28,343 nucleotides of DNA from a virus. The notes beneath the pieces are model-generated. The model was given only the letters and a program-made list of their open reading frames with translations, was not told where the DNA came from and made no database searches. Position 1 is the first letter of the stretch. Each line of letters begins with the position of its first letter. The DNA lies in IMG/VR virus record IMGVR_UViG_3300036715_001527, positions 1 through 28,343 of that record; one strand, given 5' to 3'. Below are positions 1-28,129 of this stretch, in pieces. The position numbers and the translations under genes are program-made.

Positions 1-1131
1 AATATGACGAGCAATCTCACCAACAAAGCCAGGAGGCCACGGTAAGTCTGAAGGACGTTGGTAGTCTTCTGTATAACCCTCGATAAAACTGTCCGGATCT
101 ACCAAGTCCTCAGGGAACGGTATATGTGTGGTTACGTATGGTGCATTTGAGGGTATTGCTGCGGGTGCTACAGCACCGCTATGCGCTTCGTTTGCGCTTG
201 CTGGTGCAGGGGTAACGTGCAGCTTAGCAAGCAGCGTAGCGGTGCTTGCTTCAGCATAAACATCCAAACGATCTTCTGAAGCTTCACGGCTACGAATGAG
301 TTTAAGGTTGAAATTTAAGTACCGATCGTTCTTAGTTGCTTTGGTTCGCTTACCAAGTGCAGTTTGCCGAAACATACGACGAACTTGTGTATTCGATTTC
401 GTATAAAACGTAAACATGGACATAAGTGCAAGATCGGCTTCAGACTGAGAGGCATAACTGCTAAACTCACCTTCACACAGACTTTTAAATTTATCTGCAT
501 TTTCTGCATTACATGCACGTTCCCAAAGGACTTCGTCTGTCTCAGTTTCTTCTAGTTCTTGCAATTCGACTTTTTCGTATCCATCTCGTCCATCGTTAAT
601 TTCTGCGACAAGAATATTAAGCAACTCTTGACGTGGTTCGATATCTCGTTGCAGATAAATGTTACCTGTACATACAATGAATCGTTCTTGCGAATAGACC
701 TCAACCCCGTCGCGACGCACTCCTTCGCCAATCGTGCCAGAAACCCAAATATGATAACCCTGACCACCAGCGCTGATCTCTGTATACGAATCGAATGTCT
801 GGATGATGCGTTGGTAACGGTCAAGTTGTTCTTGTGGTGTCCATTTCAATGGGTCATTTTCGTTAATTGCATTACGCACATCTAAATCGATGCAGGTATA
901 ACCACACTGACGCGTTAGCACATATCCGATATGTGTCCTAGCTGTGAACGCATCCTCGACAGTTGTTTCGAAGTCTTTCCATTCGTTAGGCTTAACAGGG
1001 CTTGTGCGGTGCATACCACGCGCAGTTTTGACATAAGGAGCGCGCATCTTACCATTGTCGTCAGGACCTGCAATACACCAGTTCCTGTCCCAACGAAGAC
1101 CTTCTGGGATCATCTCGTAATTCAAAGGCAT
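1..1131 (-). CDS. Primase-polymerase (AEP superfamily, NrS-1-like) with start of a helicase-type region; C-terminus outside window
   Basis: The 377 visible codons begin at ATG 1131 with a GGGGAG Shine-Dalgarno 8 bases upstream; the frame runs off the left end. The three archaeo-eukaryotic primase signatures are present: an hDhD motif (CIDLD, Asp82/Asp84), an sxH motif (GYHIWV, His127), and the third acidic position in VEVYSQ (Glu144) followed by RFIVCTG. Around residues 229-262 is a helical stretch (EADLALMSMFTFYT...RMFRQTALGKR) typical of the helix-bundle domain following the prim-pol core in NrS-1-type phage polymerases. The last visible residues (PPGFVGEIARHI) resemble the start of DUF3987/helicase modules. 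The protein probably makes primers and perhaps extends DNA at the phage fork. Family assignment is by motif recognition; the helicase part is inferred because it lies outside. Confidence 0.82.
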   Translation of the reverse strand, partial: MPLNYEMIPEGLRWDRNWCIAGPDDNGKMRAPYVKTARGMHRTSPVKPNEWKDFETTVEDAFTARTHIGYVLTRQCGYTCIDLDVRNAINENDPLKWTPQEQLDRYQRIIQTFDSYTEISAGGQGYHIWVSGTIGEGVRRDGVEVYSQERFIVCTGNIYLQRDIEPRQELLNILVAEINDGRDGYEKVELQELEETETDEVLWERACNAENADKFKSLCEGEFSSYASQSEADLALMSMFTFYTKSNTQVRRMFRQTALGKRTKATKNDRYLNFNLKLIRSREASEDRLDVYAEASTATLLAKLHVTPAPASANEAHSGAVAPAAIPSNAPYVTTHIPFPEDLVDPDSFIEGYTEDYQRPSDLPWPPGFVGEIARHI

Positions 1132-1133
1132 CG

Positions 1134-1382
1134 TCAGTCTCCCCGACGCGCATTAAGAATTATTTTCCATGCGTCAAGATAAGGCTGGACAATACTTCTT
1201 TCCCAAATAAAAAGAGTGCCGTTGTTAAGAGATACAGCGTGTGGTAATTTGCCTGTACGTCGTGCATAGAGAATTGTCCCGCGTGAAACGCTAAGGTCTT
1301 TCATAATCTCTGACGACGTTATATACTTCTGATCAAACTCTTGTTGTGCTAAATCTATTTGACTATTTGACATGGTGACCAT
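1134..1382 (-). CDS. Small helix-turn-helix DNA-binding protein (MerR/excisionase-like)
   Basis: This is an 82-aa protein, or 79 aa from the internal ATG at 1373. Residues 20-45 (YITSSEIMKDLSVSRGTILYARRTG, split here as helix YITSSEIMKDL and helix SRGTILYARR) form an HTH like those of excisionases and MerR-type phage proteins. An Arg/Lys-rich tail follows. It ends 2 bases before the primase-polymerase start, so the two are probably co-translated. Neither ATG has a clear Shine-Dalgarno, so the start is uncertain. A DNA-binding regulatory or accessory replication role is inferred from fold and neighbour only. Confidence 0.7.
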   Translation of the reverse strand: MVTMSNSQIDLAQQEFDQKYITSSEIMKDLSVSRGTILYARRTGKLPHAVSLNNGTLFIWERSIVQPYLDAWKIILNARRGD

Positions 1383-1420
1383 GATAAGAGTTTGTTTAGG
1401 CAGGAGGGTAATTGTAACGC

Positions 1421-1463
1421 GGATATAAAACTAACGCAAGCGTAAAACGCTTTGAACGCTTGC
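1421..1463 (-). terminator. Hairpin followed by T-rich tract (leftward transcripts)
   Basis: GCAAGCG (1436-1442) pairs with CGCTTGC (1457-1463) across a 14-base loop. Read leftward, the stem is followed by GTTAGTTTTATAT. The element lies downstream of the 1531-1812 gene and upstream of the HTH gene at 1382. An alternative inner stem, AAGCGT/ACGCTT, is also possible. It fits an intrinsic terminator or attenuator, though the U-tract is imperfect. Confidence 0.5.
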
Positions 1464-1477
1464 ATTATTAACTAGTC

Positions 1478-1627
1478 TTACTTAGAATTTTTAGAACGTT
1501 CATTTCGTTTAGACGCACCTATACGCCTACCTAGACGCTTATGTGCGGGAACAGCTTTGGCTCCGAACTACAAACATCGGTTTTTGCGATGACGAATCTT
1601 ACGTGCGCGTGTTTTATTTTTGGACAT
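1478..1627 (-). pseudogene. Very basic 49-codon ORF interrupted by an in-frame amber codon
   Basis: Starting at ATG 1627, this frame encodes 19 residues rich in Arg/Lys (MSKNKTRARKIRHRKNRCL), then TAG at 1568-1570. The same frame then encodes 29 more residues of the same character (AHKRLGRRIGASKRNERSKN and so on), ending in TAA at 1478. The composition is alike on both sides of the stop, as in a single gene. It overlaps the end of the 1531-1812 gene in another frame, and no Shine-Dalgarno is visible. It could be a decayed gene, an amber-readthrough gene, or a chance shadow. Confidence 0.3.
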
Positions 1628-3722: not shown

Positions 3723-5090
3723 TTAAAGGCCCATGGCTACACGTAAGCGAGCACAAGCGGCTACTGCTGTCGGAAGTTCGTAAGTGATGCCGTCTAGCGC
3801 GTGCTGCGCAATTGATAAAATATCACAATTGAGCGTTTGACCACAGTACAAACTTACTAAGATCTTATTGCGAAACAAATTCGTAGCAGCAGATCCTTCA
3901 AAATCATTACCTTTGTAATTTAGGACAATGTTAAGCAGTTCAATGATCAGCACACCTACTTGCGGCGGTTCACCCACGATTTCTGCTTGATTTAAAACTT
4001 TGGTCCAGTAATAAAGACTGTCTGTATCGATCTGTCGGCCCAAAACGTTTGCGTAGATCTTGCGCACAATTTCCGTGTTGGTGAGATAGCCCGGATAATA
4101 TAACTGCCCTGGATCCGTTTGATACATTTGTTGAGCTAACTCTTGTGGAGACATGCCTCCAGCGAGTTTCCCGATCCAAAAATTCAATCCGCTCGCTTCA
4201 GCTGCATGGCCAAACAAGGCAGCGTACAACCCTGCAACCATTATAGCATTTTGCGGGTACGGCAAAATTGTAGGAGTAGACAGAGGCTGGTCGGGTTCGA
4301 TAAAATCATGCATCACACGGGCTTCAAAAATATCAGCAACCCATGCATAAGATAATGCACCGTAACCACGATCGCCCCAATTAATAGACCAAGAGTTCTG
4401 AATGCCGAAAATGCCCATATTGACGTTATCGTCAAATTTATCGATAACAACTTCGTGATTACCGATTGGTTCCAAATAGCCTGGCACAGAAGTGTCGAGC
4501 AGTTGTTGTTCCCATTCATCACCTTTTAAATGACGGAACCATTCGTAAACTTTGAAAGCAACGTATACTTTATCGCCTTGCATTAAAGCAGATTTAATAT
4601 TACGAATTCGTTCTTCGATACCTTCAATCGTACTCGGATCAGGCAGAGGAATCACTTCATAACGGCCGATTTTCTGCGATGCCGCTTGCGCATACGCATC
4701 TGGTGAAGGCTGCATGTTTTCGTTCGCAGGATTATAAGGCCACATAATTTCATCGCATACGCCGATATTCTTGTAGACGCGGCAAACATTACGGGGTTGT
4801 GCGCCTTCTTGTCCCAAAGTACCACCAAGTATACGAGCATCGTAGTAAGGCTGTTGGCGCGACAAATGACGAAATTGGCCGCGGGCAAGTAATTTACCTT
4901 CCAAGATAGTTGCACCCGCATTTGTTGTGCAGGAACCTTCTTGAGCTTGGTCTTCGATTGGCAAATCATGTCGACGTAAGCTAACGCGGTCGACAAAGCT
5001 TGTCACGTTACCGACAGGATAGGGATAGTCTCGGTCGTCTGGAACAGATTGTACTGTACCGGATACAACATATTGAGGTAGTGTGGTCAT
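3723..5090 (-). CDS. Papain-like (C1A) cysteine protease fused to a DUF4214 domain
   Basis: The 455-aa protein starts at ATG 5090 with AAAGGA upstream. Residues 1-265 form a papain-type domain. Gln48 is the oxyanion residue, six before the nucleophile Cys54 in EDQAQEGSCTTNAGA. His212 lies in GNHEVVIDKF and Asn232 in QNSWSINWGDRGYG, so the full catalytic set is present. Residues about 285-365 carry DUF4214 signatures (LYAALFGHAAEASGLNFWIG and IVRKIYANVLGR). No signal peptide, propeptide or membrane segment is visible, so a cytoplasmic or virion role is more likely than secretion through Sec. Possible roles are cleavage of host or virion proteins. Domain calls are by motif; the target is unknown. 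Confidence 0.85.
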   Translation of the reverse strand: MTTLPQYVVSGTVQSVPDDRDYPYPVGNVTSFVDRVSLRRHDLPIEDQAQEGSCTTNAGATILEGKLLARGQFRHLSRQQPYYDARILGGTLGQEGAQPRNVCRVYKNIGVCDEIMWPYNPANENMQPSPDAYAQAASQKIGRYEVIPLPDPSTIEGIEERIRNIKSALMQGDKVYVAFKVYEWFRHLKGDEWEQQLLDTSVPGYLEPIGNHEVVIDKFDDNVNMGIFGIQNSWSINWGDRGYGALSYAWVADIFEARVMHDFIEPDQPLSTPTILPYPQNAIMVAGLYAALFGHAAEASGLNFWIGKLAGGMSPQELAQQMYQTDPGQLYYPGYLTNTEIVRKIYANVLGRQIDTDSLYYWTKVLNQAEIVGEPPQVGVLIIELLNIVLNYKGNDFEGSAATNLFRNKILVSLYCGQTLNCDILSIAQHALDGITYELPTAVAACARLRVAMGL

Positions 5091-5601: not shown

Positions 5602-5610
5602 ATGACCACA

Positions 5611-6072
5611 CTATAGTAGTTCTGACGAATTGTAAAACGAAAAGGTGTCTGTACCAGCCACAATGATATGGTCAGCGACAGAAATGTCCACAAGTTTCAA
5701 AGCTTCTTTAAGTTTCTTTGTGAACATAATGTCCATAGGGCTAGGGTTAGCATCGCCACTTGGATGATTGTGGTATAGGACTACGCTATTTGCATTCGCC
5801 AACAGCGCTTCTTTGACAACTTCGCGCGGATAAACACTGGTGTGAGTGAGCGTACCTCGGAACAATTGGCAGTCTTTAATGAGCTTACCCGAAATGTTAA
5901 GCAATAGAATGCCGAATACCTCATGTTGAAGTTCGGCCAATTTCAAGACCAAATAAGCAGAACATGTCGCAGGCATGTTCAAGACAGGCCCATGTGTGGT
6001 CAGACGGTTACGCAGAACAGCTAGTGCTGCTTTAATCTGTTCGCTTTGCACCAATTCATCATTATTTTGCAT
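5611..6072 (-). CDS. radC: RadC-like JAB/MPN domain protein
   Basis: The 153-aa protein keeps the RadC core. Glu51 is in EVFGILLLN, and the JAMM metal site is HNH-PSGDANP-S-PM-D (His101, His103, Ser111, Asp114), followed by ISVADHIIVAGTDTFSFYN. It lacks the N-terminal HhH region of chromosomal RadC, as is usual in mobile elements. The biochemical role of RadC is not settled. It overlaps the HNH gene by 11 bases and has AAGG before its ATG. It ends in TAG, in frame with the downstream wHTH gene. Confidence 0.9.
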   Translation of the reverse strand: MQNNDELVQSEQIKAALAVLRNRLTTHGPVLNMPATCSAYLVLKLAELQHEVFGILLLNISGKLIKDCQLFRGTLTHTSVYPREVVKEALLANANSVVLYHNHPSGDANPSPMDIMFTKKLKEALKLVDISVADHIIVAGTDTFSFYNSSELL

Positions 6073-7204: not shown

Positions 7205-7426
7205 TTAATCTTTCTTCAATTTCTGGCATAGTGCAGCAAAGAACTGCTGGTGTTCCAGTGTGGTTAAACGTGAAGCAGTATCCAAGCAACGGTCGTATTT
7301 TGTTTGGACTGCGGGTTGAGTCGCTTTATACCATTCCCATGCCGCTATATTGCCGACGATCATAGCAAAGATAATGAGACAGATAGATACTACCAATAGC
7401 CAAATTGGTAGATTGTTCATTTTCAT
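7205..7426 (-). CDS. Single-pass membrane protein, 73 aa
   Basis: The start at ATG 7426 has GGAG 7 bases upstream and overlaps the previous gene's TGA. Residues 6-28 (LPIWLLVVSICLIIFAMIVG) form a strong transmembrane helix. The rest is soluble, with EWYKATQPAVQTKYDRCLDT and a C-terminal FFAALCQKLKKD. A short N-terminus, one helix and a larger polar C-terminus recall spanin or holin-accessory layouts, but no lysis neighbours are present. Role unknown. Confidence 0.7.
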   Translation of the reverse strand: MKMNNLPIWLLVVSICLIIFAMIVGNIAAWEWYKATQPAVQTKYDRCLDTASRLTTLEHQQFFAALCQKLKKD

Positions 7427-8361: not shown

Positions 8362-8458
8362 CAATTAAGGGTGCAGCACAACCATTTTATAATGTTGTGC
8401 AATATATTTGCGAAGCTGATGCAAATATATTTTGGATCCCTGACCCATTCACATGGGT
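8362..8458. repeat. Three consecutive inverted repeats in a 150-bp gap
   Basis: Within the gap are GCACAAC (8376-8382) with GTTGTGC (8394-8400); AATATATTTGC (8401-8411) with GCAAATATATT (8421-8431); and ACCCAT (8443-8448) with ATGGGT (8453-8458). All are perfect. The first two overlap the predicted promoter, so they are operator candidates. CAATTAAGGGTGCAGCAC at 8362-8379 recurs inverted at 10576-10593. Confidence 0.75.
8386..8414 (-). promoter_or_regulatory. Sigma70-like promoter for the 7849-8337 gene
   Basis: Reading leftward, TTCGCA (8409-8414) is followed by a 17-base spacer and TATAAA (8386-8391). The gene start is about 49 bases further on. The -35 box matches only 4 of 6 consensus bases, while the -10 matches 5 of 6. 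The whole element is buried in inverted repeats. Confidence 0.5.
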
Positions 8459-9472: not shown

Positions 9473-9747
9473 ATCGCCTCCGGTAAAACGACAGCCGGTT
9501 TAGCGAGAACTTGGTCGATGTCCGATAAGTAATGGTTCGGCACCACGTAAAAACCGAGGTCTTCGCGGAAGTAGCCTTGCCCGTAGTCTTTGCAAACATG
9601 GGTTGCAGATGCGTCCTGCCCTTGAGCGAACGGCTCGGCAGCAGTGCGTATGACCACACAATTACCAATCGCGTGCACATCTGCTTGTATGGTATAGTTC
9701 GAGGTTAGAAAGAAGACTTTCGCCCCAGTCTTGATACATGTGTTCAT
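9469..9747 (-). CDS. Hypothetical protein, 92 aa
   Basis: AGGAGG precedes ATG 9747, which is preferred to ATG 9786. The product begins MNTCIKTGAKVFFLTSNYTI, with a beta-rich core and GYFREDLGFYVVPNHYLSDI near the end. It overlaps its neighbours by 4 bases on each side. Function is unknown. Confidence 0.65.
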   Translation of the reverse strand: MNTCIKTGAKVFFLTSNYTIQADVHAIGNCVVIRTAAEPFAQGQDASATHVCKDYGQGYFREDLGFYVVPNHYLSDIDQVLAKPAVVLPEAI

Positions 9748-10051: not shown

Positions 10052-10552
10052 TTACAGGCAGAAACCATGCACCAGACCAGGCTCGTTGACCTTTGGCAGT
10101 TCTCTGAGCATTGTCACCAACAGATCTGCGCTCTGCAGGTTGTTGTCTGGATAAACTTCGCCCGTCGGCTCGCTGGACAATTGGCGTTGCATACGGTCAT
10201 TGCGCAACGAACCTTCGATTAAGCGAATCAGCAGTTTGCGCTGCGGGTTACTGAGGAGAATTTCATACGGGCCGTCTGGTTGGAGTTTGCTATCAACCGG
10301 CTCGTTTTTGATGAAGCCCCATGCGTTGAGCATGCCTTCAACTCTGCCTTTGTAGATCAAATTGGTGTTGATCCAAATACCATTACCTGGATCTTCGACG
10401 TAATCGACTTCATTACCGTAGTTGATGTCGAGCGTTACTTTTTCTTGCAGGGTCAAACAACGATTGAGCATAAACTGCGAACCGTTGATGTCTGGCGCAT
10501 TCTCGAAGTACGTCGCTTGGTCGGGCAACGGAATGGGTTTTTGTGTGGTCAT
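10052..10552 (-). CDS. Hypothetical protein, 166 aa
   Basis: AAGGAG lies 7 bases before ATG 10552; the upstream in-frame ATG at 10726 would cover the promoter gap. The product has an alpha-beta middle (GNEVDYVEDPGNGIWINTNL, IYKGRVEGMLNAWGFI) and a C-terminal helix with RKLLIRLIEG. The first codons (ATG ACC ACA C) contain the dispersed 9-mer in the reverse sense. Function is unknown. Confidence 0.68.
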   Translation of the reverse strand: MTTQKPIPLPDQATYFENAPDINGSQFMLNRCLTLQEKVTLDINYGNEVDYVEDPGNGIWINTNLIYKGRVEGMLNAWGFIKNEPVDSKLQPDGPYEILLSNPQRKLLIRLIEGSLRNDRMQRQLSSEPTGEVYPDNNLQSADLLVTMLRELPKVNEPGLVHGFCL

Positions 10553-10575: not shown

Positions 10576-10617
10576 GTGCTGCACCCTTAATTGTACGCTT
10601 GTGCGCAAGGGGTGCAA
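10576..10617 (-). promoter_or_regulatory. Possible promoter and operator before the 166-aa gene
   Basis: Reading leftward, TTGCAC (10612-10617) is followed by a 16-base spacer and TACAAT (10590-10595). The -35 match is weak. The start-site region contains CAATTAAGGGTGCAGCAC (18 bases, 10576-10593), a perfect inverted copy of 8362-8379, which also lies between a promoter-like box and a gene. A shared regulator site is plausible. Confidence 0.4.
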
Positions 10618-11344: not shown

Positions 11345-11571
11345 TTGCGTGGCTCCCAAAAGACGCCTTGATAACCACACGTATTTGTTATCTCAGCAGA
11401 AAAGCTGCGTTCCAAGGACATGAAACAAGAACGTCCAGGATTGCGATTGGTTTGACGTTCGCAGCGATCATACTTAGCTGGTACGCCGCACAGAGCACGC
11501 CAAAACGTGCGCCATTTGGATTGGTGGTGCTTACAGGTATCGCAAGGCTTAATTACGAGGTGTGTGTTCAT
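11341..11571 (-). CDS. Cys-rich phage protein, 76 aa, zinc-ribbon-like
   Basis: AAGGAG lies 8 bases before ATG 11571. Cysteine pairs CDTC and CDRC plus SCFMSLERSF and CGYQGVFWEP match a common small phage family ending in CGxxGxFWEP, of unknown function. Overlaps of 4 bases occur on both sides. Confidence 0.7.
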   Translation of the reverse strand: MNTHLVIKPCDTCKHHQSKWRTFWRALCGVPAKYDRCERQTNRNPGRSCFMSLERSFSAEITNTCGYQGVFWEPRK

Positions 11572-12326: not shown

Positions 12327-12354
12327 GGTTGAGGCTCCTTTGTAGTTAGTGTGG

Positions 12355-13110
12355 TTATGTGTTGGTCTGGACTTGGCTGAAGTTAAGTTGATAATAGAAA
12401 TCTTCGTCAGACATTTGATTATCATTAGCGTACATAGCAAGTTCGAGATCTTCTACTTCGAACTGCATGTAGTCGTACAGGAACATCGCAGCATCTTTAT
12501 TTAAGATACCTTTAAGCATGATCGGCTTGAGATTGCATTCGAGCAGACCTTCAAGGTGTTTAACCACACTGGCGAGTGTTGTTAGATCTTTGGTAAGCTC
12601 TTCGCGCTCTTCACCAGTAACAGGAGAAGTTGAGCGATTGAGGACGACTGATAACATTTGCAAACGGTACGGTATTTGACCGAAGTACAGATCGTGTGCG
12701 AAGTAGTGCTGCAGCTCAGCTGAGTTGTGGCCTTCTGCTTTGTACTTCGACAATTTTGCCCAAGTGTTGGTGTCGATATTTGGGTCGGTGTTTGGGAATA
12801 GCTTGCGAGCTCCTGTTGCTGCTTTGGGCTTCGCTACAGCACGTTCCATGCGTTCGTAGACAGCTTTGGTACTTGGTGCCCATTGGCTAGGGTCAAGACG
12901 TGGTCGGCCGAGACGTTTTGGCTCATTATCTTCATCGAGATTAACTTGCTTGTTGGAGCTGTTTGCTTTTGGCATGAGAGAAAGCTTAAATTTACAATCT
13001 TTCACTATTGCTTTGTTGCGCAAGATTTCCTGCTCGCTATTATGCATTATGGTGCGTAATTCCTGCACAGATTGCATAGGGGTATTTGGGGGAGTGTTTT
13101 GGTCGTCCAT
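12355..13110 (-). CDS. Hypothetical protein with AT-hook-like motif and coiled coil, 251 aa
   Basis: ATG 13110 is preferred to 13149 by position relative to the gap, though the Shine-Dalgarno is weak (AGAGA). Residues about 15-50 form a charged helix (VQELRTIMHNSEQEILRNKA). PKRLGRPRLDP (about 77-87) contains the GRPR core of an AT-hook. The rest is helical (HNSAELQHYFAHDLYFGQIP; TTLASVVKHLEGLLECNLKP) with an acidic tail. It sits next to the AT-rich palindromic gap and may bind it, which is inference. No enzyme motif is seen. Confidence 0.7.
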   Translation of the reverse strand: MDDQNTPPNTPMQSVQELRTIMHNSEQEILRNKAIVKDCKFKLSLMPKANSSNKQVNLDEDNEPKRLGRPRLDPSQWAPSTKAVYERMERAVAKPKAATGARKLFPNTDPNIDTNTWAKLSKYKAEGHNSAELQHYFAHDLYFGQIPYRLQMLSVVLNRSTSPVTGEEREELTKDLTTLASVVKHLEGLLECNLKPIMLKGILNKDAAMFLYDYMQFEVEDLELAMYANDNQMSDEDFYYQLNFSQVQTNT

Positions 13111-13449: not shown

Positions 13450-13716
13450 CTAGTTCAAGTGATACAATAAAAACTCGACCTGCAAAATAGCTTTTTCTTG
13501 CATCAGATCATTAATATCAGCATTCACTTGCTCAATGCTAAAATTTGTCGCTTGAACATAGCAATAATCGCGAATTTCGCCAATATTCTTGTCACCTTGA
13601 GTTCTTAACAAACCCAAGATACAACTTTTGCAGGAAATGTCCTGCAAACAGCGCATCACACCTTGGCGAAACGTGTTACACTGAATGAGATTTGCACCCG
13701 TTGTTAGTGTGGTCAT
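13450..13716 (-). CDS. Small helical protein, 88 aa, possibly winged-helix
   Basis: GAGGAG lies 7 bases before ATG 13716; the upstream ATG 13731 precedes that site. The centre (VMRCLQDISCKSCILGLLRT, then IEQVNADINDLMQEKAILQV) has the helix-helix-strand feel of a winged helix. The first codons ATG ACC ACA C are again the dispersed 9-mer. A regulator role is a guess. It lies between a palindromic gap on one side and the AT-rich region on the other. Confidence 0.62.
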   Translation of the reverse strand: MTTLTTGANLIQCNTFRQGVMRCLQDISCKSCILGLLRTQGDKNIGEIRDYCYVQATNFSIEQVNADINDLMQEKAILQVEFLLYHLN

Positions 13717-14798: not shown

Positions 14799-14826
14799 TT
14801 CGGCCATTAAAGCCTCATCAGTGTGG

Positions 14827-14919
14827 TTATTCGACTAGTGCGTACATAAAGACCAAGAAACCCAAAATGGTCAATGTGTCGAAAACCAGTAAAGACATAT
14901 AGATAGCGAAAGATTTCAT
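14827..14919 (-). CDS. Tiny membrane peptide, 30 aa
   Basis: GGAG lies 8 bases before ATG 14919. The whole product is hydrophobic (MSLLVFDTLTILGFLVFMYA), one transmembrane helix with a short MKSFAIY start and an ALVE end. Its stop codon lies inside a copy of the dispersed 9-mer (14821-14829). The good ribosome site makes it more than a chance frame. Role unknown. Confidence 0.6.
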   Translation of the reverse strand: MKSFAIYMSLLVFDTLTILGFLVFMYALVE

Positions 14920-15754: not shown

Positions 15755-15770
15755 TTAAATCTCCTGTTAT

Positions 15771-15813
15771 AGTCCAAAGCGGACTCACAAACTCACTGGT
15801 TACAATGAGTTTG
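15771..15813 (-). ncRNA. Two-hairpin RNA element, copy a
   Basis: In the leftward transcript, hairpin A is CAAACTCA/TGAGTTTG with a 10-base loop (plus-strand 15788-15813). It is followed by hairpin B, AGTCC-GCTTT-GGACT (15771-15785). The element lies after the 15823-16101 gene and before the Shine-Dalgarno of the RHH gene. Relative to copies b and c the stem of B has a compensatory G-C to C-G swap. Confidence 0.65.
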
Positions 15814-15822
15814 GAAATTGCT

Positions 15823-16393: not shown

Positions 16394-16450
16394 TCATAGT
16401 GTGGTTAATGAAAGTACATTGTGTTGTACATGGCTTACTCCCATTTTCAT
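16394..16450 (-). CDS. Possible 18-aa leader peptide
   Basis: AAGGA lies 6 bases before ATG 16450. The product is MKMGVSHVQHNVLSLTTL, and its TGA overlaps ATG 16397. A matching MGVTHVQH frame follows the other copy of this leader (about 16938-16964) and stops early. Conservation of GV-x-HVQH between two leaders hints that it is translated, perhaps to control the downstream gene. Confidence 0.35.
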   Translation of the reverse strand: MKMGVSHVQHNVLSLTTL

Positions 16451-16469
16451 TTTATTTCCTTATCGTGAT

Positions 16470-16513
16470 AGTGCAAAGCGCACTCAGTATCCAACTATTG
16501 CTAATTGGATACT
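16470..16513 (-). ncRNA. Two-hairpin RNA element, copy b
   Basis: Hairpin A is AGTATCCAA/TTGGATACT with a 10-base loop (16486-16513). Hairpin B is AGTGC-GCTTT-GCACT (16470-16484). It lies between the 16531-16854 gene and the leader of the 81-aa gene. Loop A starts CT and ends AA on the plus strand, as in the other copies, while the stem sequence is unrelated. Confidence 0.65.
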
Positions 16514-16530
16514 AAATTACTTTATTTAGA

Positions 16531-16933: not shown

Positions 16934-16988
16934 AGTGCTTCTCCTAGTGTTGTACATGGGTTACTCCCATTTAAATGTTCTTCATAAT

Positions 16989-17032
16989 AGTGCAAAGCGC
17001 ACTCAATACCTTGCTGTTGTCAACAAGGTATT
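16989..17032 (-). ncRNA. Two-hairpin RNA element, copy c
   Basis: Hairpin A is AATACCTTG/CAAGGTATT with a 10-base loop (17005-17032). Hairpin B is AGTGC-GCTTT-GCACT (16989-17003). It lies directly after the 17041-17259 gene. Hairpin B is identical to copy b, whereas the stem of A is different in sequence but the same length. Confidence 0.65.
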
Positions 17033-17040
17033 AAATTACT

Positions 17041-17259
17041 TTACTTAGCTAATTCTTGTTGTACCATCCACATCGTAAAATCGCCAATCAGCTCTAATCC
17101 GTCGTAGGTTGTATCGTCCTCAACAGTATCTTGCATGTCGCCAAGGTACTGTTCAATATATGTATGCCAAGAAATAGGTACATATTCTTTCAAAAACAAA
17201 GTTGCCACTTCGGGGTTAGCAGCCATTTGTGCTACTGTGCCAGTAAATATTGTCGCCAT
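17041..17259 (-). CDS. Hypothetical acidic protein, 72 aa
   Basis: AGGAG lies 7 bases before ATG 17259. It begins MATIFTGTVAQMAANPEVAT and has a strongly acidic second half (YLGDMQDTVEDDTTYDGLEL). It is the first gene of the leftward small-gene series apart from the Ala-rich gene. Acidic early phage proteins of this size are often DNA mimics or host inhibitors, but nothing in the sequence proves that here. Confidence 0.65.
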   Translation of the reverse strand: MATIFTGTVAQMAANPEVATLFLKEYVPISWHTYIEQYLGDMQDTVEDDTTYDGLELIGDFTMWMVQQELAK

Positions 17260-17591
17260 AATAGTTCTCCTAGTAAATGTGTCCTACGGGTGTAAGGCAC
17301 ATTCACATAGCACCTGTCACGTGCATGTGGTCTACCGGTTAGCGTTACTTTGCTGTTAGGTCTACTGCCCCATGTGTTTCATTTAAGTGTGCTTGCTTGT
17401 AGGGAATGTTTTAACCATACGCGGTTCTGTTGCCGCGCAATACATAGGGGTACGTTTATACAAGTTTTTACATGGGGTTGTGTAGCGCGGTATGGGTGCT
17501 GCTTCTAGTTATACTACGTACCGTGCTACACCTGCTTAGGTTTTTAAATAGCTACCCTATGTACGTACCCGCGTTATGGGGTACAGGGTTG
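17260..17591. other. Non-coding part of the divergence zone, rich in GTAC
   Basis: No convincing gene is seen on either strand. The stretch contains repeated GTAC-centred palindromes (TACGTACC near 17515 and ATGTACGTACCCGCG near 17558) and paired blocks such as ATGGGGT/GGGGTAC. The base pattern (many TGC, GTAC, GGGT) differs from the coding parts. It may contain promoters for the leftward small genes. Confidence 0.45.
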
Positions 17592-17682
17592 TTGCTTGTT
17601 GCTTGTTGCTTGTTGCTTGTTGCTTGTTGCTTGTTGCTTGTTGCTTGTTGCTTGCTGCTTGTTGCTTGTTGCTTGTTGCTTG
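17592..17682. repeat. Tandem array of TTGCTTG, 13 units
   Basis: Thirteen consecutive 7-bp units, all TTGCTTG except one CTGCTTG (17655-17661). Open frames across the array on the plus strand are by-products of the repeat. The array lies at the leftward/rightward switch point and runs into a perfect hairpin. A short tandem array here could be an iteron-type binding site or a slippage-prone contingency tract. Confidence 0.85.
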
Positions 17683-17720
17683 CTACTGCGCACTGGTGTT
17701 TTAGTACGCAGTAGCAAGCA
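17677..17720. repeat. Perfect 14-bp inverted repeat beside the tandem array
   Basis: TGCTTGCTACTGCG (17677-17690) and CGCAGTAGCAAGCA (17707-17720) flank a 16-base loop. The left arm includes the last array unit. It lies 35 bases past the stop of the Ala-rich gene, so it could end that transcript, but no T-tract follows in either direction. Confidence 0.8.
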
Positions 17721-18924: not shown

Positions 18925-19188
18925 ATGCAACCGAATATTCACATCAAGAATTCAGCTGAAGCTCTTGACCTTAAAGCTCTACAAAGACTTGCCTTCTTAC
19001 CTCAAACTCCAAATTTACCGAGTTGGACCTTCGGAGTGCCCTTTCAGCATCTAGGCAAACCTCTGCTGCTTTTGTCCATAACAGGCAATTCCTTTTGCGG
19101 CATCTGGTGTGGTCAAATAGGCGAGCATTATGTCGGTTGGGCCCCAATTCAATCTCACCATCTTGCAAAGTTGCGCAATGTCCATTAA
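18925..19188 (+). CDS. Hypothetical protein, 87 aa
   Basis: AAAGGA lies 7 bases before ATG 18925. The chain contains AEALDLKALQRLAFLPQTPN and a glycine-rich beta part (LSITGNSFCGIWCGQIGEHY). It overlaps the next gene by 11 bases. A 9-mer copy (19107-19115) lies inside the gene. Function is unknown. Confidence 0.66.
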   Translation: MQPNIHIKNSAEALDLKALQRLAFLPQTPNLPSWTFGVPFQHLGKPLLLLSITGNSFCGIWCGQIGEHYVGWAPIQSHHLAKLRNVH

Positions 19189-19868: not shown

Positions 19869-20041
19869 TGGCGACCAAAACTAAAGCATCTGAGGACGAT
19901 GTCATTGCTCGTGTATTCGAATTAATGGAGACTAAGCGTTTGTCCGAAATTGAAGCTATCGAGCAAGCCTTTACAGAGCTCTGGCCTCAGCCTAAAGTCC
20001 CTTGTGTGGTCATACACAAGGACGAACGCTATGGCGAGTGA
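19868..20041 (+). CDS. Small acidic hypothetical protein, 57 aa
   Basis: ATG 19868 shares a base with the previous TAA (TAATG). The product begins MATKTKASEDDVIARVFELM and ends VVIHKDERYGE. One long charged helix is likely (METKRLSEIEAIEQAFTELW). The 9-mer (20004-20012) lies inside, coding for CVVI. Function is unknown. Confidence 0.62.
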   Translation: MATKTKASEDDVIARVFELMETKRLSEIEAIEQAFTELWPQPKVPCVVIHKDERYGE

Positions 20042-20258
20042 CTACGGTGCCATGACCACACAAATCTGTAACACAGTTGATCATTGTTCGGGTTCAAAAC
20101 CGCTTACACGCGCTCAGCGCCTTACTTTGTCTGGTGCAGTTGCCATTTATCTAGACAAAGAATTTAAGCTCGGAATTGAGAAAGGTCGTCAGGCAATGTT
20201 CGACGAAATGCTGAAAGCTCGTGAAGCAACTTACAGACGTTCTTTAAGGAAAGACTAA
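20031..20258 (+). CDS. Hypothetical protein, 75 aa
   Basis: AAGGA lies 8 bases before ATG 20031, overlapping the previous gene by 11 bases. ATG 20052 (MTTQICN), which carries the 9-mer in the reverse sense, is an alternative. It contains LTRAQRLTLSGAVAIYLDKE and KGRQAMFDEMLKAREATYRR, a helical, charged chain. Its last base is shared with the next ATG (TAATG). Confidence 0.64.
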   Translation: MASDYGAMTTQICNTVDHCSGSKPLTRAQRLTLSGAVAIYLDKEFKLGIEKGRQAMFDEMLKAREATYRRSLRKD

Positions 20259-20728
20259 TGACAGGCGATCGTGATGGTGAACAAGCGTTCTTTGAATTCT
20301 TTAATCTTATGCTTGGTAAGCAATTGGGCTATGGTTCTTCAAGAAAAGTTTATAACTTGGAACTCGATAAACATTGTGTGGTTAAAGTGGAGACTGGCCC
20401 TGGAAATTTTCAAAATATACGTGAATGGGATTTATGGAACAATGTTAAAGATACCGTTCATGCAAAATGGTTCGCTCCTTGTAAACGCTTGAGCGAAAAC
20501 GGACAAATTCTTGTCATGTCGAAGACTGAACCCCCTGGTCCAAACGACTGGCCTGCAGAAATACCCGCTTTCTTTGACGACATTCATAAAGCAAACTTCG
20601 GCATGGTCCAACTTCTCGATTTACGGACGAATAAAGAAGATTGGCATTTTGTCTGCCATGATTACGGTTGGAACAATGCTGTTCGTGGTGGTCTTTCTAA
20701 ACGTATGCAAAAGGTGGACTGGAAATGA
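20258..20728 (+). CDS. Protein-kinase-like phage protein, 156 aa
   Basis: The N-terminal half has a kinase-like order: a glycine loop (LGYGSSRKVYNL, 23-34), a strand with Lys43 (CVVKVE), a helix with Glu56 (NIREWDLWNNVKD), and a hinge-like strand (GQILVMSKTEPP). The C-terminal half holds DDIHKANFG (about 107-115) and FVCHDYGWNN (131-140). The latter recalls DFG/HD motifs, but in an order that does not match a canonical kinase. At 156 residues it is much shorter than a full kinase, so it may be a mini-kinase, a pseudokinase, or a lookalike. Target unknown. Confidence 0.55.
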   Translation: MTGDRDGEQAFFEFFNLMLGKQLGYGSSRKVYNLELDKHCVVKVETGPGNFQNIREWDLWNNVKDTVHAKWFAPCKRLSENGQILVMSKTEPPGPNDWPAEIPAFFDDIHKANFGMVQLLDLRTNKEDWHFVCHDYGWNNAVRGGLSKRMQKVDWK

Positions 20729-21348: not shown

Positions 21349-21737
21349 ACGCACCAAAATTGAGCAAAGCAATGGCTGTGATGAAAGTATTGGTTGAAGA
21401 CACATTGCGCAGAGACAGACATTCTCGCGGTACTGTGCTATTACAGGAAAATATAGATTTATGCCTAGGTGCAATAAACGGTCTAGTTCCACCACATAGA
21501 CCTCTGTACGTAATTGCAGATGCATTCCGCTTCGTACAAGACTTCAGTGTGGTCATGCAGCGTCGTTGTGTGCATTTAAGTAATGTGCAATATGCGCGCG
21601 GTATCGAAGATAGCCATATCGTCTCTTTGATAACCGGCGGACGTACAGACTCTCAGCGTAAGATCTTTGGTGAACTCATTAACCAGCTTGAACATCAACG
21701 ATGTATTGTTTGGCGTATCGGACATTGGCGCGTTTAA
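21342..21737 (+). CDS. Hypothetical protein, 131 aa, last gene before the packaging operon
   Basis: GGAG lies 8 bases before ATG 21342, which is preferred to 21321. It is helical at first (DAPKLSKAMAVMKVLVEDTL; RRDRHSRGTVLLQENIDLCL) with a basic end (EHQRCIVWRIGHWRV). It sits where many phages carry a late regulator, between early genes and terminase, but no DNA-binding motif is certain. Its stop codon lies in TTTAAACGC. Confidence 0.65.
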   Translation: MLDAPKLSKAMAVMKVLVEDTLRRDRHSRGTVLLQENIDLCLGAINGLVPPHRPLYVIADAFRFVQDFSVVMQRRCVHLSNVQYARGIEDSHIVSLITGGRTDSQRKIFGELINQLEHQRCIVWRIGHWRV

Positions 21738-21921: not shown

Positions 21922-22470
21922 GTGGAAGATACGCAAAGCACTATCGTCCAAGAGCCATCAGTTCCGACCAATTATAGCGATCGGGAAAAGAAACTCCGTG
22001 ACTTATTTGTGGAACAGTACCTTGTCGATTACGACGAGGTGGCTGCTGCTATTCGTATCAATTATCCTAAGAGTGTTGCCCGTGAAATGGGCGTTCTCTT
22101 GTTCAACGAACCTTATGTTCGTCAGCAAATCAAACTCGCGCAAGAAAATATCAAAGTCGAAGGCTCGGAAACTGCTAAGCAGCGTATCCTTGCAGGCTTG
22201 TGGCGTGAAGCGAATTATCGTGGTACAGGTTCTTCCCAAGCCGCTCGGGTAGCTGCTCTTGCTAAACTGGCTGCAATCGAAGGCATGGACGCTCCGTCTC
22301 GTTCTAAGTTTGAAATGACTGGTCCAGATGGACAACCTCTTGGCCCGATGTCTGGCGTATTTGTTGTTCCAGGTATTATGGATGCTGAAACATGGGAAAA
22401 AATGGCTGCTGAACAGCAAGCAGCTCTTGTTGCTCAACCTCCTATCGGATCGGCACCAAAAGCTGCTTAA
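21922..22470 (+). CDS. terS: Terminase small subunit
   Basis: The start is GTG 21922 with GGGGA upstream. The 182-aa protein has an N-terminal HTH region (LRDLFVEQYLVDYDEVAAAI; PKSVAREMGVLLFNEPYVRQ) typical of small terminases that recognise the packaging site. A helical oligomerisation region (TAKQRILAGLWREANYRGTG) and a Pro/Ala-rich tail follow. It sits directly before the large subunit with a one-base overlap (TAATG). Confidence 0.85.
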   Translation: MEDTQSTIVQEPSVPTNYSDREKKLRDLFVEQYLVDYDEVAAAIRINYPKSVAREMGVLLFNEPYVRQQIKLAQENIKVEGSETAKQRILAGLWREANYRGTGSSQAARVAALAKLAAIEGMDAPSRSKFEMTGPDGQPLGPMSGVFVVPGIMDAETWEKMAAEQQAALVAQPPIGSAPKAA

Positions 22471-23954
22471 TGAGTGAAATCTTACTACCTAACCGCCAAC
22501 TTGTTGTACCGAGTCAGCAACTTGCTCCGATAGCTCGAAGCATAATTGTACCTCCGGTATGGAAGGCTTTGCCCGGTAGTCAGAGCTTATTCTTGCAGAG
22601 TCCTATTCGAGAAGTTTGTTTTGCCGGCACCCGCGGGCCTGGTAAGACTGATGCAATGCTTATGTCATTTGCACAATACTGCGGGCGAGGTTATGGGGAT
22701 TACTGGCGCGGCGTTATTTTTCGACGAAACTACAAGCACTTGGATGATATTATCTCTAAGTCGAAACGGTGGTTTAATCGTTCAGCACAGAAGCCTCGCT
22801 TTCTTGCAGGAAGTAGTAGCCTTAAATGGATTTGGCCTACTGGCGAAGAATTGTTGTTACGTGCATTTGAAGACGAAGAAGATTATTGGTCGTACCACGG
22901 ACACGAGTACCCATTTATCGGATGGGAAGAACTTACTAGCTGGCCGTCGATTGCTTGTTACGAGTCGATGAAGTCCACTAATCGTTCTTCTTATCAGGGT
23001 ACAGAGAGGCTACCAACAATCCCGCGTATCGTGCGCAGTTCGACAAACCCGTATGGTGTCGGGCACAATTGGGTCAAAGGTTATTTTATTGATCCTGCGC
23101 CTTATGGTAAAGTGATTACCGATAACGATAGTAATAAGCGCGTCTGTTTGTTTGGTTCAATTAAAGAGAATCCTTATCTTGGTGAAGAATATATCAAGAC
23201 ATTGCAGTCTATTACTGACCCAAATAAGCGTAAAGCTTGGTTGGAAGGAAGTTGGGATATTACTTCTGGCGGTATGTTCGATGATCTATGGGATGCTACC
23301 AAACATGTTCTTAAACCATTTAAGATTCCGTATAGCTGGAAAATTGATCGTGCATTTGACTGGGGCAGCTCGCGCCCTTTTAGTGTTGGTTGGTGGGCTA
23401 TGTCCGACGGCACAGACGCAACTATGGCAGATGGAACTACCCGTTCGTTCCCACCGAAGACTTTATTCCGTATCGGAGAATGGTACGGCTGTACTGGGAA
23501 ACCGAACGAAGGGTTAAGAATGACTGCGCGAAATGTCGCACAGGGTATCTTGGCAAGAGAACTTCAACTTGGAATTCAGAATCGTGTACTGCCGGGTGCA
23601 GCCGATTCTGCTATTTATAACGTTACCGACGATGCTTCTATCGGCCAGAACATGGAATTCGAAGGTGTATTTTGGGTTCCCGCAGATAAGAAACCCGGTA
23701 GTCGTAAGAATGGTTGGGAACTGATTCGAGATCGCTTATCTGCAGTTACAAGTGAAGATGCGATTGAAAAACCAGGCATGTACATCTTCGACACATGTCG
23801 CGATTTCATTCGTACTGTACCTCCTATCCCTCGGGATCCTAAAGATCCCGATGATGTTGATACAGATGCAGAAGATCATATTTCCGACGAAGTGCGCTAT
23901 CGCGTACTAGAAGCAGACCACATTGTACATCGTATAAAAATTGGCGGAGTTTAA
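22470..23954 (+). CDS. terL: Terminase large subunit
   Basis: The 494-aa protein has the ATPase and nuclease parts. Walker A is GTRGPGKT (53-60). Walker B is FIGWEE (Glu153/Glu154). The coupling motif is RSSTNPYG (189-196). The nuclease has FDWGSSRP (Asp297), GAADSAIYN (Asp379) and DAEDH (Asp469). It pumps DNA into the prohead and cuts it. Length and motif order are normal for the family. A GGAG in its last codons serves as the portal Shine-Dalgarno. Confidence 0.95.
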   Translation: MSEILLPNRQLVVPSQQLAPIARSIIVPPVWKALPGSQSLFLQSPIREVCFAGTRGPGKTDAMLMSFAQYCGRGYGDYWRGVIFRRNYKHLDDIISKSKRWFNRSAQKPRFLAGSSSLKWIWPTGEELLLRAFEDEEDYWSYHGHEYPFIGWEELTSWPSIACYESMKSTNRSSYQGTERLPTIPRIVRSSTNPYGVGHNWVKGYFIDPAPYGKVITDNDSNKRVCLFGSIKENPYLGEEYIKTLQSITDPNKRKAWLEGSWDITSGGMFDDLWDATKHVLKPFKIPYSWKIDRAFDWGSSRPFSVGWWAMSDGTDATMADGTTRSFPPKTLFRIGEWYGCTGKPNEGLRMTARNVAQGILARELQLGIQNRVLPGAADSAIYNVTDDASIGQNMEFEGVFWVPADKKPGSRKNGWELIRDRLSAVTSEDAIEKPGMYIFDTCRDFIRTVPPIPRDPKDPDDVDTDAEDHISDEVRYRVLEADHIVHRIKIGGV

Positions 23955-23955
23955 A

Positions 23956-25473
23956 ATGAGCGTAAAAAACCAACATCCCGAATATACCGACATGTTGAAT
24001 AAATGGCAGCGTTGCCTGGACGTGTGTGCAGGGCAAGACGCGATTCACGCAGCGGGTACTTTGTATTTGCCACAGTTAGTTGACCAAGATCCTGTTGAGT
24101 ATAAAAACTATACTAACAGAGCGACATTTTATAATGCGACATGGCGCACTGTCGTAGGCTTGCAAGGGATGCTATTCCGCAAACCTCCTTCAATCGTCGT
24201 ACCGCCAACTGTCGTACCAATGATGGACAATGTCGATCTGGCAGGTAGCCCGATGCATATCTTTGCTTTGGAAGCTTCCGAAGAATGTCTCAAACTTGGA
24301 CGTGTCGGCATCTTTACCGACTTCCCCGCAGTGGACGACGGCGCCACTATGGCTGATGCCAAGAAGCGTAACTATCGTCCGAACATGCGGATCTGCTGTG
24401 CGACGTCTATTATTAACTGGAAAACTTCGACAATTAATAACGAAACAATCTTGTCTCTTATCGTGCTTAAAGAAGCTGTCGACATACCTGTTGATGAATT
24501 CCAAGACACCGAAGAAATTCATTATCGTGTCTTGGACTTATTTAATATGCCCGGCGAAGATGGCTCGACCACACTGGTCTACCGAGTTCGTACTTTCAAA
24601 GTTGAAGAAAAAGCAGGTGTAGAAGTCGACGTCTTATTGACAGTTGCTTATCCCAAAATCAATGGTGCCCATCTCGACCGTATTCCTTTCCAATTTATCG
24701 GTGTAGACGATGCTAATTGGGAAATCGACGAACCCCCATTGATCGATCTGGTCGATATAAATCTTTCACACTATCGTTCTGTTGCCGATTACGAGCACGG
24801 TTGTCATTTCACAGGTCTACCTACACCTGTTATTTCTGGCTATACGCCTACAAAAGAAGGTGAAAAGTTTTATATCGGTAGTATGTCAGCATGGATCTTT
24901 CCTAATGTTCAGGCAAAAGCAACGTACCTTGAATTCACCGGTGCGGGTCTGTCAGCACTGGAAGCCAACTTAACCAAGAAAGAAGGTTACATGGCTATCC
25001 TCGGTGCTCGTATGCTCGAGGTACAGCGTAGCGGTGTTGAGTCTGCAAACACAGCAGCTATTCATCGCGGTGGTGAACAGTCAATGCTCGCATCTGTCGC
25101 ACAAGCTATTTCAATTGGCCTGACGAAGGCATTGAAAACTTTCTGCGAATTTGCCAATGCTGATCCAAAAGATGCTAAGATTGATCTTAATCGAGATTTC
25201 TTCCCTGTACCAATGGATGCACTCACACTGACTGCCATTATCGCGGGCTGGCAAAATGGTGCTTACAGTTACGATACGATGTTTGCAAACTTAAAGAAAG
25301 GTGAGATTGTCCCAGTAGACAAGACACCTGAAGAAGAACAAGCGCAAATTGACGCTAACCCAGCCCCGATAATTGGTGCTCCCACGACACCCGGCAACGC
25401 TTCTCCAAAAGGCCCTAAGACTCGTGCAGCTCCTGCGACCCCTGCTCCAACAATAACGCAACTGCAGAATTAG
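23956..25473 (+). CDS. Portal protein (DUF4055 type)
   Basis: ATG 23956 has GGAG 6 bases upstream, giving 505 aa. The start (MLNKWQRCLDVCAGQDAI; TLYLPQLVDQDPVEYKNYTN), TWRTVVGLQGMLFRKPPSIV and the acidic C-terminal tail with Pro/Ala match DUF4055 portals. It forms the dodecameric ring for DNA entry. Position between terminase and scaffold agrees. It ends in TAG, followed by TGT GGT TAT ACG ATG in the same frame, so readthrough would add the next 52-aa ORF. Confidence 0.85.
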   Translation: MSVKNQHPEYTDMLNKWQRCLDVCAGQDAIHAAGTLYLPQLVDQDPVEYKNYTNRATFYNATWRTVVGLQGMLFRKPPSIVVPPTVVPMMDNVDLAGSPMHIFALEASEECLKLGRVGIFTDFPAVDDGATMADAKKRNYRPNMRICCATSIINWKTSTINNETILSLIVLKEAVDIPVDEFQDTEEIHYRVLDLFNMPGEDGSTTLVYRVRTFKVEEKAGVEVDVLLTVAYPKINGAHLDRIPFQFIGVDDANWEIDEPPLIDLVDINLSHYRSVADYEHGCHFTGLPTPVISGYTPTKEGEKFYIGSMSAWIFPNVQAKATYLEFTGAGLSALEANLTKKEGYMAILGARMLEVQRSGVESANTAAIHRGGEQSMLASVAQAISIGLTKALKTFCEFANADPKDAKIDLNRDFFPVPMDALTLTAIIAGWQNGAYSYDTMFANLKKGEIVPVDKTPEEEQAQIDANPAPIIGAPTTPGNASPKGPKTRAAPATPAPTITQLQN

Positions 25474-25481
25474 TGTGGTTA
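25473..25481 (+). promoter_or_regulatory. Copy of the 9-mer between the portal stop and the 52-aa ORF
   Basis: GTGTGGTTA begins on the last base of the portal stop (TAG) and ends 4 bases before ATG 25486. It occupies the place where a Shine-Dalgarno would be expected, and no GGAG-type site is present. The same arrangement is seen at RadC and the wHTH gene (5603-5611). Confidence 0.55.
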
Positions 25482-26540: not shown

Positions 26541-26577
26541 GTCTTTCGACAGCGTCCAAATTTAAAGGAAATACATC

Positions 26578-27723
26578 GTGGCAAATACCCTTACCTCTCT
26601 GATCCCGGCGCTCTATTCGTCACTGGATGTCATCTCACGTGAACTCGTAGGTGCAATTCCTTGCTGTACGTTGGACGCTACTACTACCCGCGCTGCGGTC
26701 GGCCAACTGGTCTATTCTTTCCAGAGTCCTGCTGCAACAGCTACTAACATCACCCCAGGCGTTACACCACCGAATGACGGCGACCAAGTAATCGGCAACG
26801 TTTCGTTGACCATTACCAAATCGCGTCGTGTACCTTTCCGCTGGAGCGGTGAAGAAGAACTCGGCCTGAACAACAACGGCGCCGGTGCTGGTGCAATCAA
26901 GAATGCACAAATGCAGCAAGCAATGCGTACTCTGGTCAACGAAATGGAAATCGACGTGGTTCGCGCCGCTGTTGTTGCTTCCTCGCGTGCTTACGGTACA
27001 GCGGGTACAACTCCTTTCGCGTCGACTCTGGGCGATCCGGCACAAGTTCGTAAAATTCTGGACGATAACGGCGCTCCAATGGGCGATCGTTGCATGGTGA
27101 TCGACACAACCTCTGGCGCCGCTCTGCGTACACTGGCTCAACTGACCAAAGCAAACGAAGCAGGCACAACGCAAACTCTGCGTGACGGCGAACTGCTGAA
27201 TCTACATGGTTTCTCGATCCACGAATCGGCCGGTGTCGTCGCTGCTGCCAAAGGTACTGGTACATTGTACACTTCCGATACTGCCGGCTATGCGATCGGT
27301 GCAACTCAAATTGCACTGATTACTGGTACTGGTACGGTTCTGGCTGGTGACACAGTCACTTTCGCTGGCGATACGAATAAATACGTCGTCACTACTGGTG
27401 TAGCTGCACCTGGCACGATCACAATCGGCGGTCCAGGTCTGCGCAAAGCACTGGCCGCTTCGGCTGTCGCAATGACTGTCGGTAACTTGGCCACAAGCAA
27501 CATTGCATTCTCGCAATCGTCGCTGATTCTAGCTACTCGTGCTCCTGCATTGCCACAAGGCGGCGATCTGGCGGTTGACCGTATGACAATCACAGATCCT
27601 CGTTCGGGCATCTCGTTCGAAGTTGCCATGTATCCGCAATATCGTCAAATGCAATACGAAATCTCAGCATCGTGGGGCGTAGCAGGCATCAAGCCGGCGC
27701 ACTCTGCCATCCTGTTGGGCTAA
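26578..27723 (+). CDS. Major capsid protein (P22-coat-like)
   Basis: The start is GTG 26578 with AAAGGA upstream. The 381-aa protein has hallmarks of the P22 coat family: ANTLTSLIPALYSSLDVISR, ELVGAIPCC, SFQSPAATATNITPGVTPPN, MRTLVNEMEIDVVRAA, an inserted Thr/Gly-rich beta domain (about 235-300), and the ending ITDPRSGISFEVAMY to HSAILLG. It forms the icosahedral shell. Codons are visibly tuned (GGC, GGT, CTG) as expected for high expression. A terminator follows. Confidence 0.9.
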   Translation: MANTLTSLIPALYSSLDVISRELVGAIPCCTLDATTTRAAVGQLVYSFQSPAATATNITPGVTPPNDGDQVIGNVSLTITKSRRVPFRWSGEEELGLNNNGAGAGAIKNAQMQQAMRTLVNEMEIDVVRAAVVASSRAYGTAGTTPFASTLGDPAQVRKILDDNGAPMGDRCMVIDTTSGAALRTLAQLTKANEAGTTQTLRDGELLNLHGFSIHESAGVVAAAKGTGTLYTSDTAGYAIGATQIALITGTGTVLAGDTVTFAGDTNKYVVTTGVAAPGTITIGGPGLRKALAASAVAMTVGNLATSNIAFSQSSLILATRAPALPQGGDLAVDRMTITDPRSGISFEVAMYPQYRQMQYEISASWGVAGIKPAHSAILLG

Positions 27724-27747
27724 TTCGTAACGTAATTGATGTTCGTC

Positions 27748-27782
27748 AATACCGCTCTGGTTCACTCCGGAGCGGTATTTCT
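27748..27782 (+). terminator. Terminator after the major capsid gene
   Basis: AATACCGCTCTGG (27748-27760) pairs with CCGGAGCGGTATT (27767-27779) with one G-T pair and a 6-base loop, followed by TCT. The long strong stem fits an intrinsic terminator, although the T-tract is short, so partial readthrough to the next genes is likely. Confidence 0.72.
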
Positions 27783-27805
27783 ACATGCATAAATAAGGAG
27801 TCAAA

Positions 27806-28129
27806 ATGGACAACCCTCTCGAAAGCTGTGAAACAGTCGAGATTCAAACAGAACTAACCGAAGCTAATCCTTCTGGTGTGGTCATCATTAACGCCTCGGA
27901 CTACGACGAGACTACTATGAAACTTATTGGTGATTTTACTCAAACGCAGACAGCTAAAGAAGCACTGCTGAAAGCTGGTGAGCAAGCTCGTGTTGAGGCT
28001 CAAGCTGCAAAAGATGCATTGGCCGAACAAACTCGTCTTGCTAGTGAACAAAATTCGCAGGAAACTAAAATACCAGAGCAGCCCCAAACCTCGTCTGCCC
28101 CAGCAGATACTGCTAAACCTTGGGCCTAA
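27806..28129 (+). CDS. Small structural-type protein, 107 aa
   Basis: AAGGAG lies 7 bases before ATG 27806. The chain has an acidic N-terminus (VVIINASDYDETTMKLIGDF), a coiled helix (ALLKAGEQARVEAQAAKDAL) and a Pro/Ser-rich tail ending KPWA. Position after the capsid gene suggests a head-associated or head-completion role. A copy of the 9-mer (27876-27884) lies inside. No family is recognised. Confidence 0.62.
   Translation: MDNPLESCETVEIQTELTEANPSGVVIINASDYDETTMKLIGDFTQTQTAKEALLKAGEQARVEAQAAKDALAEQTRLASEQNSQETKIPEQPQTSSAPADTAKPWA

Follow-up and report, generated by a model that had tools for sequence, protein, structure and literature searches.

A dispersed nonamer in a phage DNA fragment as the probable template site of an NrS-1-type primase-polymerase

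The word GTGTGGTYA and the primase-polymerase gene in the window

The virus fragment record IMGVR_UViG_3300036715_001527, analysed over its whole 28,343 bases (the window), carries many exact copies of the nonamer GTGTGGTYA and, at its left edge, the 5' part of a gene for an NrS-1-like archaeo-eukaryotic primase-polymerase (PrimPol; 377 aa, positions 1..1131, minus strand; cut by the window edge), which is proposed here as the reader of the nonamer. A long leftward arm precedes the genes for the terminase large subunit (terL, 22470..23954), the portal (23941-25473) and the major head protein (26578-27723), all on the plus strand, of which terL served to orient and relate genomes. No close DNA match to the window was found among known phages; its TerL is at most 85% identical to those of uncultured IMG/VR phages and about 52% identical to those of isolated Queuovirinae such as Seurat.

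Where do the copies lie? On the plus strand the form GTGTGGTTA is found at 126..134 (inside the PrimPol gene), 7258..7266, 12349..12357, 14821..14829, 16399..16407, 20376..20384 and 25473..25481 (overlapping the stop of the portal gene), and the form GTGTGGTCA at 5081..5089 (overlapping a leftward start codon), 5994..6002, 10543..10551, 13707..13715, 19107..19115, 20004..20012, 21547..21555 and 27876..27884. The minus strand holds GTGTGGTTA at 899..907 (again inside the PrimPol gene), 11372..11380 and 12561..12569, and GTGTGGTCA at 5603..5611, 9651..9659 and 20053..20061. The total is thus 21, 15 plus and 6 minus; an earlier note on this DNA had counted 20, with the plus-strand copies right and the minus-strand copies given as five.

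The over-representation claimed in that note holds against three kinds of background. By chance, about 0.3-1 copies would be expected. Dinucleotide shuffles of the window lead to an expectation of 0.5 copies and none of 100 shuffles reached 21, a 4th-order Markov model of the window predicts 1.06, and 200 synonymous shuffles within genes, which left the boundary and intergenic copies unchanged, gave 6.6 copies on average and 9 at most, so that even a codon-aware background, to which the note itself had pointed as a challenge, does not yield a similar count. Neighbours with one mismatch occur in the window at background level, without enrichment, and the word is therefore strict.

The orientation of the copies had been said to follow the DNA molecule. 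In the window alone the 15:6 bias is not significant (p = 0.078), but relative to the terL direction the ratio over nine contigs of the window's clade is 191:79 (p = 7e-12), and because this bias is kept outside genes (32:13) and within leftward genes (59:37), the orientation follows the molecule, with an additional sense-frame effect. An RNA-level element was rejected as an explanation of the motif because its orientation is not tied to transcription. A crude gene caller places 13 of the copies in the window within genes, 1 between genes and 7 at gene ends, which is close to the "about eight" boundary copies originally described. Since most copies are intragenic and those at gene ends do not differ from the others in strand bias, no separate function is needed for the boundary copies, and the repressor or ribosome-related role suggested for them is unsupported. 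Stoperator-like repressor binding sites, as in relatives of mycobacteriophage L5, would likewise be asymmetric and strict, and some copies do sit over start and stop codons. Yet orientation is tied more to the molecule than to transcription, most sites are intragenic, the same-strand spacing described below would be left unexplained, and a repressor gene common to the motif-bearing genomes was not recognised when protein clusters of 15 motif-bearing and 6 motif-lacking genomes were compared, all of which makes stoperators a highly improbable explanation.

The assignment of the PrimPol draws on several comparisons. The protein matches the Pfam family of the NrS-1 helix-bundle domain (HBD; PF22763) with 29.3 bits at a cut-off of 27.9, NrS-1 primase chains in the PDB with E about 2e-7 (other primases also matched) and the PHROG family DNA primase with 4e-79. 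In an alignment of 29 sequences, D82, D84, G125 and H127 of the archaeo-eukaryotic primase (AEP) catalytic motifs (DxD; sGxGxH) are invariant. A Foldseek comparison of the predicted fold places N-terminal structures of NrS-1 PrimPol at ranks 1-6 and pRN1 at ranks 7-8, and the model has helices after the catalytic domain. The primase of phage Seurat also contains the Pfam domain "NrS-1 polymerase HBD" and matches NrS-1 PrimPol structures; this homologue has a conserved C-terminal part of 460 aa with no Pfam helicase match, while the gene in the window is cut by the window edge. A small helix-turn-helix (excisionase-like) protein is encoded directly upstream of the PrimPol gene (1134..1382, minus strand); it was rejected as the reader, since its homologue was undetected in many motif-bearing phages.

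Spread of the word and its association with PrimPol

NrS-1 PrimPol starts primers at sites given as 5'-TTTGGTTA-3' and, better, 5'-GTGG-3', its recognition sites are also given as 5'-GTGG/GTGA-3', and the primer start lies just upstream of the recognition site (experiments reviewed in PMC8718748). The motif in the window was found blind to this knowledge; TGTGGTTA equals TTTGGTTA at 7 of 8 positions and contains GTGG. The two systems would share a near-identical word, a homologous HBD enzyme and a strand-specific template site for primer starts. Unlike NrS-1, with few copies that are mostly clustered near one locus, the phages considered here carry about 20-60 sites per genome, spread genome-wide and spaced by about 2 kb on the same strand. 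The putative origin of NrS-1 (17150-17650 of its genome) contains many GTTACACTTT iterons, two plus-strand copies of TGTGGTYA and minus-strand TTTGGTTA/TGTGGTTA.

How far does the word extend among phages? GTGTGGTYA is enriched in most relatives of testable length with TerL identities of about 77-85%, as the claim of the earlier note demanded, and 13 genomes of the wider clade together contain 267 copies with 17 expected. A few relatives carry drifted words instead, and the variants in the wider clade are GTGTGGGCA in one genome (G009), ATGTGGTCA in two (G006 and G011) and ATGTGGTTA in another (G014). In Queuovirinae-like phages (Seurat, 9g, CSP1 and phages of Vibrio, Acinetobacter, Stenotrophomonas and Providencia) and in several phages of other backbones, the core TGTGG[T/C/G]YA ranks among the words with the strongest over-representation and mostly comes first. 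In ten isolates (Seurat, 9g, CSP1, Vibrio 1.207.B, VpKK5, pVco-14, HD01, Pa-oumiga, BUCT548 and PSTCR7) TGTGGTYA or TGTGGCCA is the top or a near-top over-represented octamer; in PaMx11, phiH1, P106B, CN1 and M6 the core is missing or no commoner than background. The same word is used by phages of about ten host genera, and because of this spread, and because PrimPol-lacking Pseudomonas and Acinetobacter phages are without the word, a host-derived motif was rejected. In a more distant TerL relative (L067), GGCCGTGTG is another strand-exclusive over-represented word, with 9/0 copies in 18 kb.

In the comparison of protein clusters the PrimPol gene was present in 15/15 motif-bearing and 0/6 motif-lacking genomes, and so were terS and a small DUF7173 protein; these two, together with DpdA homologues, are absent from the array-bearing phages 73, Halfdan and Lucius. 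The latter are PrimPol phages of other backbones, in which TGTGGGCA occurs 19 times with 2.6 expected (Pseudomonas phage 73), 20 times with 0.7 expected (Halfdan) and 19 times with 1.3 expected (Lucius). In shaaii, also PrimPol-bearing and of another backbone, TGTGGGC is found 26 times with 4.5 expected, and in Klebsiella phage K9PH25C2, a further member of the Queuovirinae, TGTGGTCA 24 times with 2.4 expected. Close same-strand pairs of the respective own word were not found in any of these five phages. A further 71 IMG/VR loci, picked by PrimPol protein sequence alone, contain 798 copies of TGTGG[TCG]YA with 166 expected (211 for the reversed word), the enrichment being at least 3-fold in 62 of the 71. 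Pairs less than 700 bp apart in these loci number 44 on the same strand with 169 expected, and 178 on opposite strands with 198 expected.

The HBD itself differs between phages with TGTGGTYA (T-type), which have the residues SNxQCRR, and phages with TGTGGGCA (G-type: 73, Halfdan, Lucius and shaaii), which have NRxQ[IL]xR. These differences are candidate specificity residues, confounded by ancestry and clade. Salmonella phage S144 (Loughboroughvirus, L225-L227) has an own array of TTGTGGGT (20/12 copies, 3.2 expected) with same-strand avoidance; together with an only distantly related primase this suggests a further drift of the same system.

The dissociations bear on two other explanations. 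The word could be a DNA-modification or restriction-evasion site tied to the 7-deazaguanine pathway, as pathway and motif are both found in most Queuovirinae. This is contradicted by BUCT548, 73, Halfdan and Lucius, which have the array without a DpdA homologue, and a modification motif published for this group, named in the title of Olsen 2023, is short (GA), so that a modification site is exceedingly improbable. Alternatively, the word could be a Chi-like recombination signal read by a phage Cas4-type exonuclease/helicase of the AddAB/RecBCD kind. Like Chi, it is a strict, asymmetric, G-rich, over-represented and strand-biased octamer, evenly spread, and nearly all motif-bearing phages have a Cas4-type nuclease and a helicase. 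Unlike Chi, the motif does not track such a reader: Moraxella phage Mcat24 has homologues of Cas4 (48%), the helicase and Sak4 with neither PrimPol nor array, shaaii has array and PrimPol with no Cas4 homologue detected, and Sak4 was undetected in the window's clade. A Chi-like signal is therefore very unlikely. The chi-like and packaging roles that the earlier note had listed beside primase recognition are unsupported. As readers, the dG+ enzymes, Sak4, RusA, terS and the DUF7173 protein were rejected, each dissociating from the motif.

Strand-specific spacing and the proposed role in priming

The arrangement of the sites was followed in 16 phages, to which the numbers in this paragraph refer unless stated otherwise. 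At distances of 0-250, 250-500 and 500-750 bp there are 1, 2 and 10 same-strand pairs with 61, 62 and 61 expected (3 against 123 below 500 bp), and the ratios of observed to expected in successive 250-bp bins are 0.02, 0.03, 0.16 and 0.35. The pair-distance histograms thus contain a same-strand exclusion zone of about 1 kb, with none between strands, the ratio for opposite-strand pairs being 0.77-1.31. The median distance to the nearest same-strand copy is 2.18 kb, and even background copies by themselves would lead to more close pairs on one strand than the 3 that are seen (13.1 expected, p = 0.001). Plus-strand gaps in the ten isolates have means of 1.7-2.3 kb and coefficients of variation of 0.30-0.49. 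Over 20 genomes, neighbour pairs closer than 700 bp number 38 on the same strand with 192 expected and 178 on opposite strands with 196 expected. Such avoidance within a strand and lack of any effect across strands indicate a reader that acts on one strand and senses the last copy there, as would be expected of a primase on the lagging-strand template.

Short conserved words dispersed on phage DNA are also known as single-strand nick sites in the virion DNA of T5, tf and Rembedalsseter, one of the known motifs being a 9-mer with enrichment across 60 related genomes (PMC11780129). The published nick motif, however, lies on one strand with about 9 net copies per genome, is gathered towards one end and is unrelated in sequence (PMC11780129), whereas the sites discussed here are on both strands and linked to a PrimPol. 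Copies on opposite strands stand close together as often as by chance, and nicking there would break the DNA. Programmed nicking is accordingly hardly credible.

How could such an array be used? Very probably, the NrS-1-type PrimPol encoded by the phage recognises GTGTGGTYA on the template, and the copies would be scattered genome-wide so that either strand, as template, provides a primer start at intervals of about 2 kb; among the roles originally listed, primase recognition is the one that the evidence favours. Site and enzyme are paired by inference, on the grounds of homology, co-occurrence and the identity of the word, and the most likely use of the sites is as dispersed priming sites for lagging-strand (Okazaki) synthesis. 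The HBD would read 5'-TGTGGNYA-3' on the single-stranded template at the fork, the PrimPol would, by analogy with NrS-1, synthesise a short primer from a start immediately 5' of the site, and the polymerase and clamp encoded by the phage would extend this primer as an Okazaki-type fragment. Selection removing close same-strand copies and filling sparse stretches could then lead to the regular same-strand spacing. Sites would be needed on both strands because forks are proposed to run both ways. As a plus-strand site would be a lagging-strand start for a fork that runs in the same direction as terL, the surplus of sites on the terL-sense strand suggests that most forks travel this way with that strand as lagging template. 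The pyrimidine and the varying position 7 of the word would be compatible with a purine-led primer, were initiation to occur within the word, which is at odds with the published start of NrS-1 primers upstream of the site (PMC8718748).

Instead of regular lagging-strand starts, the same PrimPol sites could mark numerous points at which replication originates or restarts. A role as a signal for origin or restart has been proposed for the NrS-1 sites (PMC7102993, PMC8718748), and most of the few copies in the NrS-1 genome (TGTGGTYA/TTTGGTYA) are clustered near 17.2-17.6 kb. Arrays of about 20-60 sites with a spacing of about 2 kb per strand and independence of the strands are, however, what lagging-strand priming predicts, while origins need no strand-wise spacing, and use as origins or restart points appears unlikely. 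The origin reading of NrS-1 in the literature (PMC7102993) and the clustering of its few copies nevertheless weigh against dispersed lagging-strand priming by PrimPol, and so do several further observations. NrS-1 PrimPol accepts bare GTG, which is looser than the strict 8-9 nt found here (PMC8718748). The same-strand spacing is weaker in the window's clade than in the isolates, reaching 0.2-0.6 of expectation below 750 bp. The distant AEP PrimPol phages 9NA, PSA and phiadh are without such an array. The association of the motif with the clamp, helicase and Cas4-type nuclease is nearly as close as that with the PrimPol, albeit none of these three is known to read this word. Finally, counts are not fully independent, because several of the compared genomes are near-duplicates (Seurat/CSP1, L259/L260 and L267/L268).

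Considered more broadly, priming by PrimPol at these sites would mean, as seems probable, that this phage group encodes the start points of its Okazaki fragments: a strict PrimPol site of 8-9 nt would occur about every 2 kb per strand, extra close copies would be counter-selected, the spacing would reveal how long the fragments are and how the strands are used, and the word would co-evolve with the HBD (T- versus G-type). The primase sites of T7 gp4, T4 gp61 and DnaG are similar in that short asymmetric words of the template determine where lagging-strand primers begin. These sites comprise about 3-5 nt and are very frequent by chance, too short in well-studied phages to show where priming is needed, whereas copy number and spacing of the 8-9 nt word are apparently set by selection. 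Sites of this length, seldom expected by chance and with a visible mark of selection in their placing, would allow the frequency of lagging-strand priming, the direction of forks and the use of strands to be read from sequence and tested at the level of single sites. A role would also be offered for the NrS-1-type PrimPols, which occur in hundreds of phage records and often carry no annotation beyond "primase", and the natural series of word/HBD pairs provides a route to how PrimPols choose their template. A genome-wide, strand-specific ruler of this kind appears to be unreported: searches for the words in phage or primase context returned nothing relevant, a provisional statement because they covered open-licence papers only.

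Further features of the window

Searches of the window for tRNAs and against Rfam returned no match. The leftward arm encodes a member of the "DNA repair protein" family phrog_10276 (5611-6072, minus strand), and two of its gaps contain the halves of a perfect 18-nt inverted repeat, CAATTAAGGGTGCAGCAC, at 8362-8379 and 10576-10593, 2.2 kb apart. A 7-nt unit (TTGCTTG/TTGTTGC) is tandemly repeated at 17588-17690, close to where the leftward and rightward arms meet. Between small leftward genes an intergenic element of 67 nt occurs in three diverged copies (15764-15830, 16463-16529 and 16982-17048), which are internally symmetric, ATCCAACTATTGCTAATTGGAT-like, and possibly represent repeated leaders or terminators.

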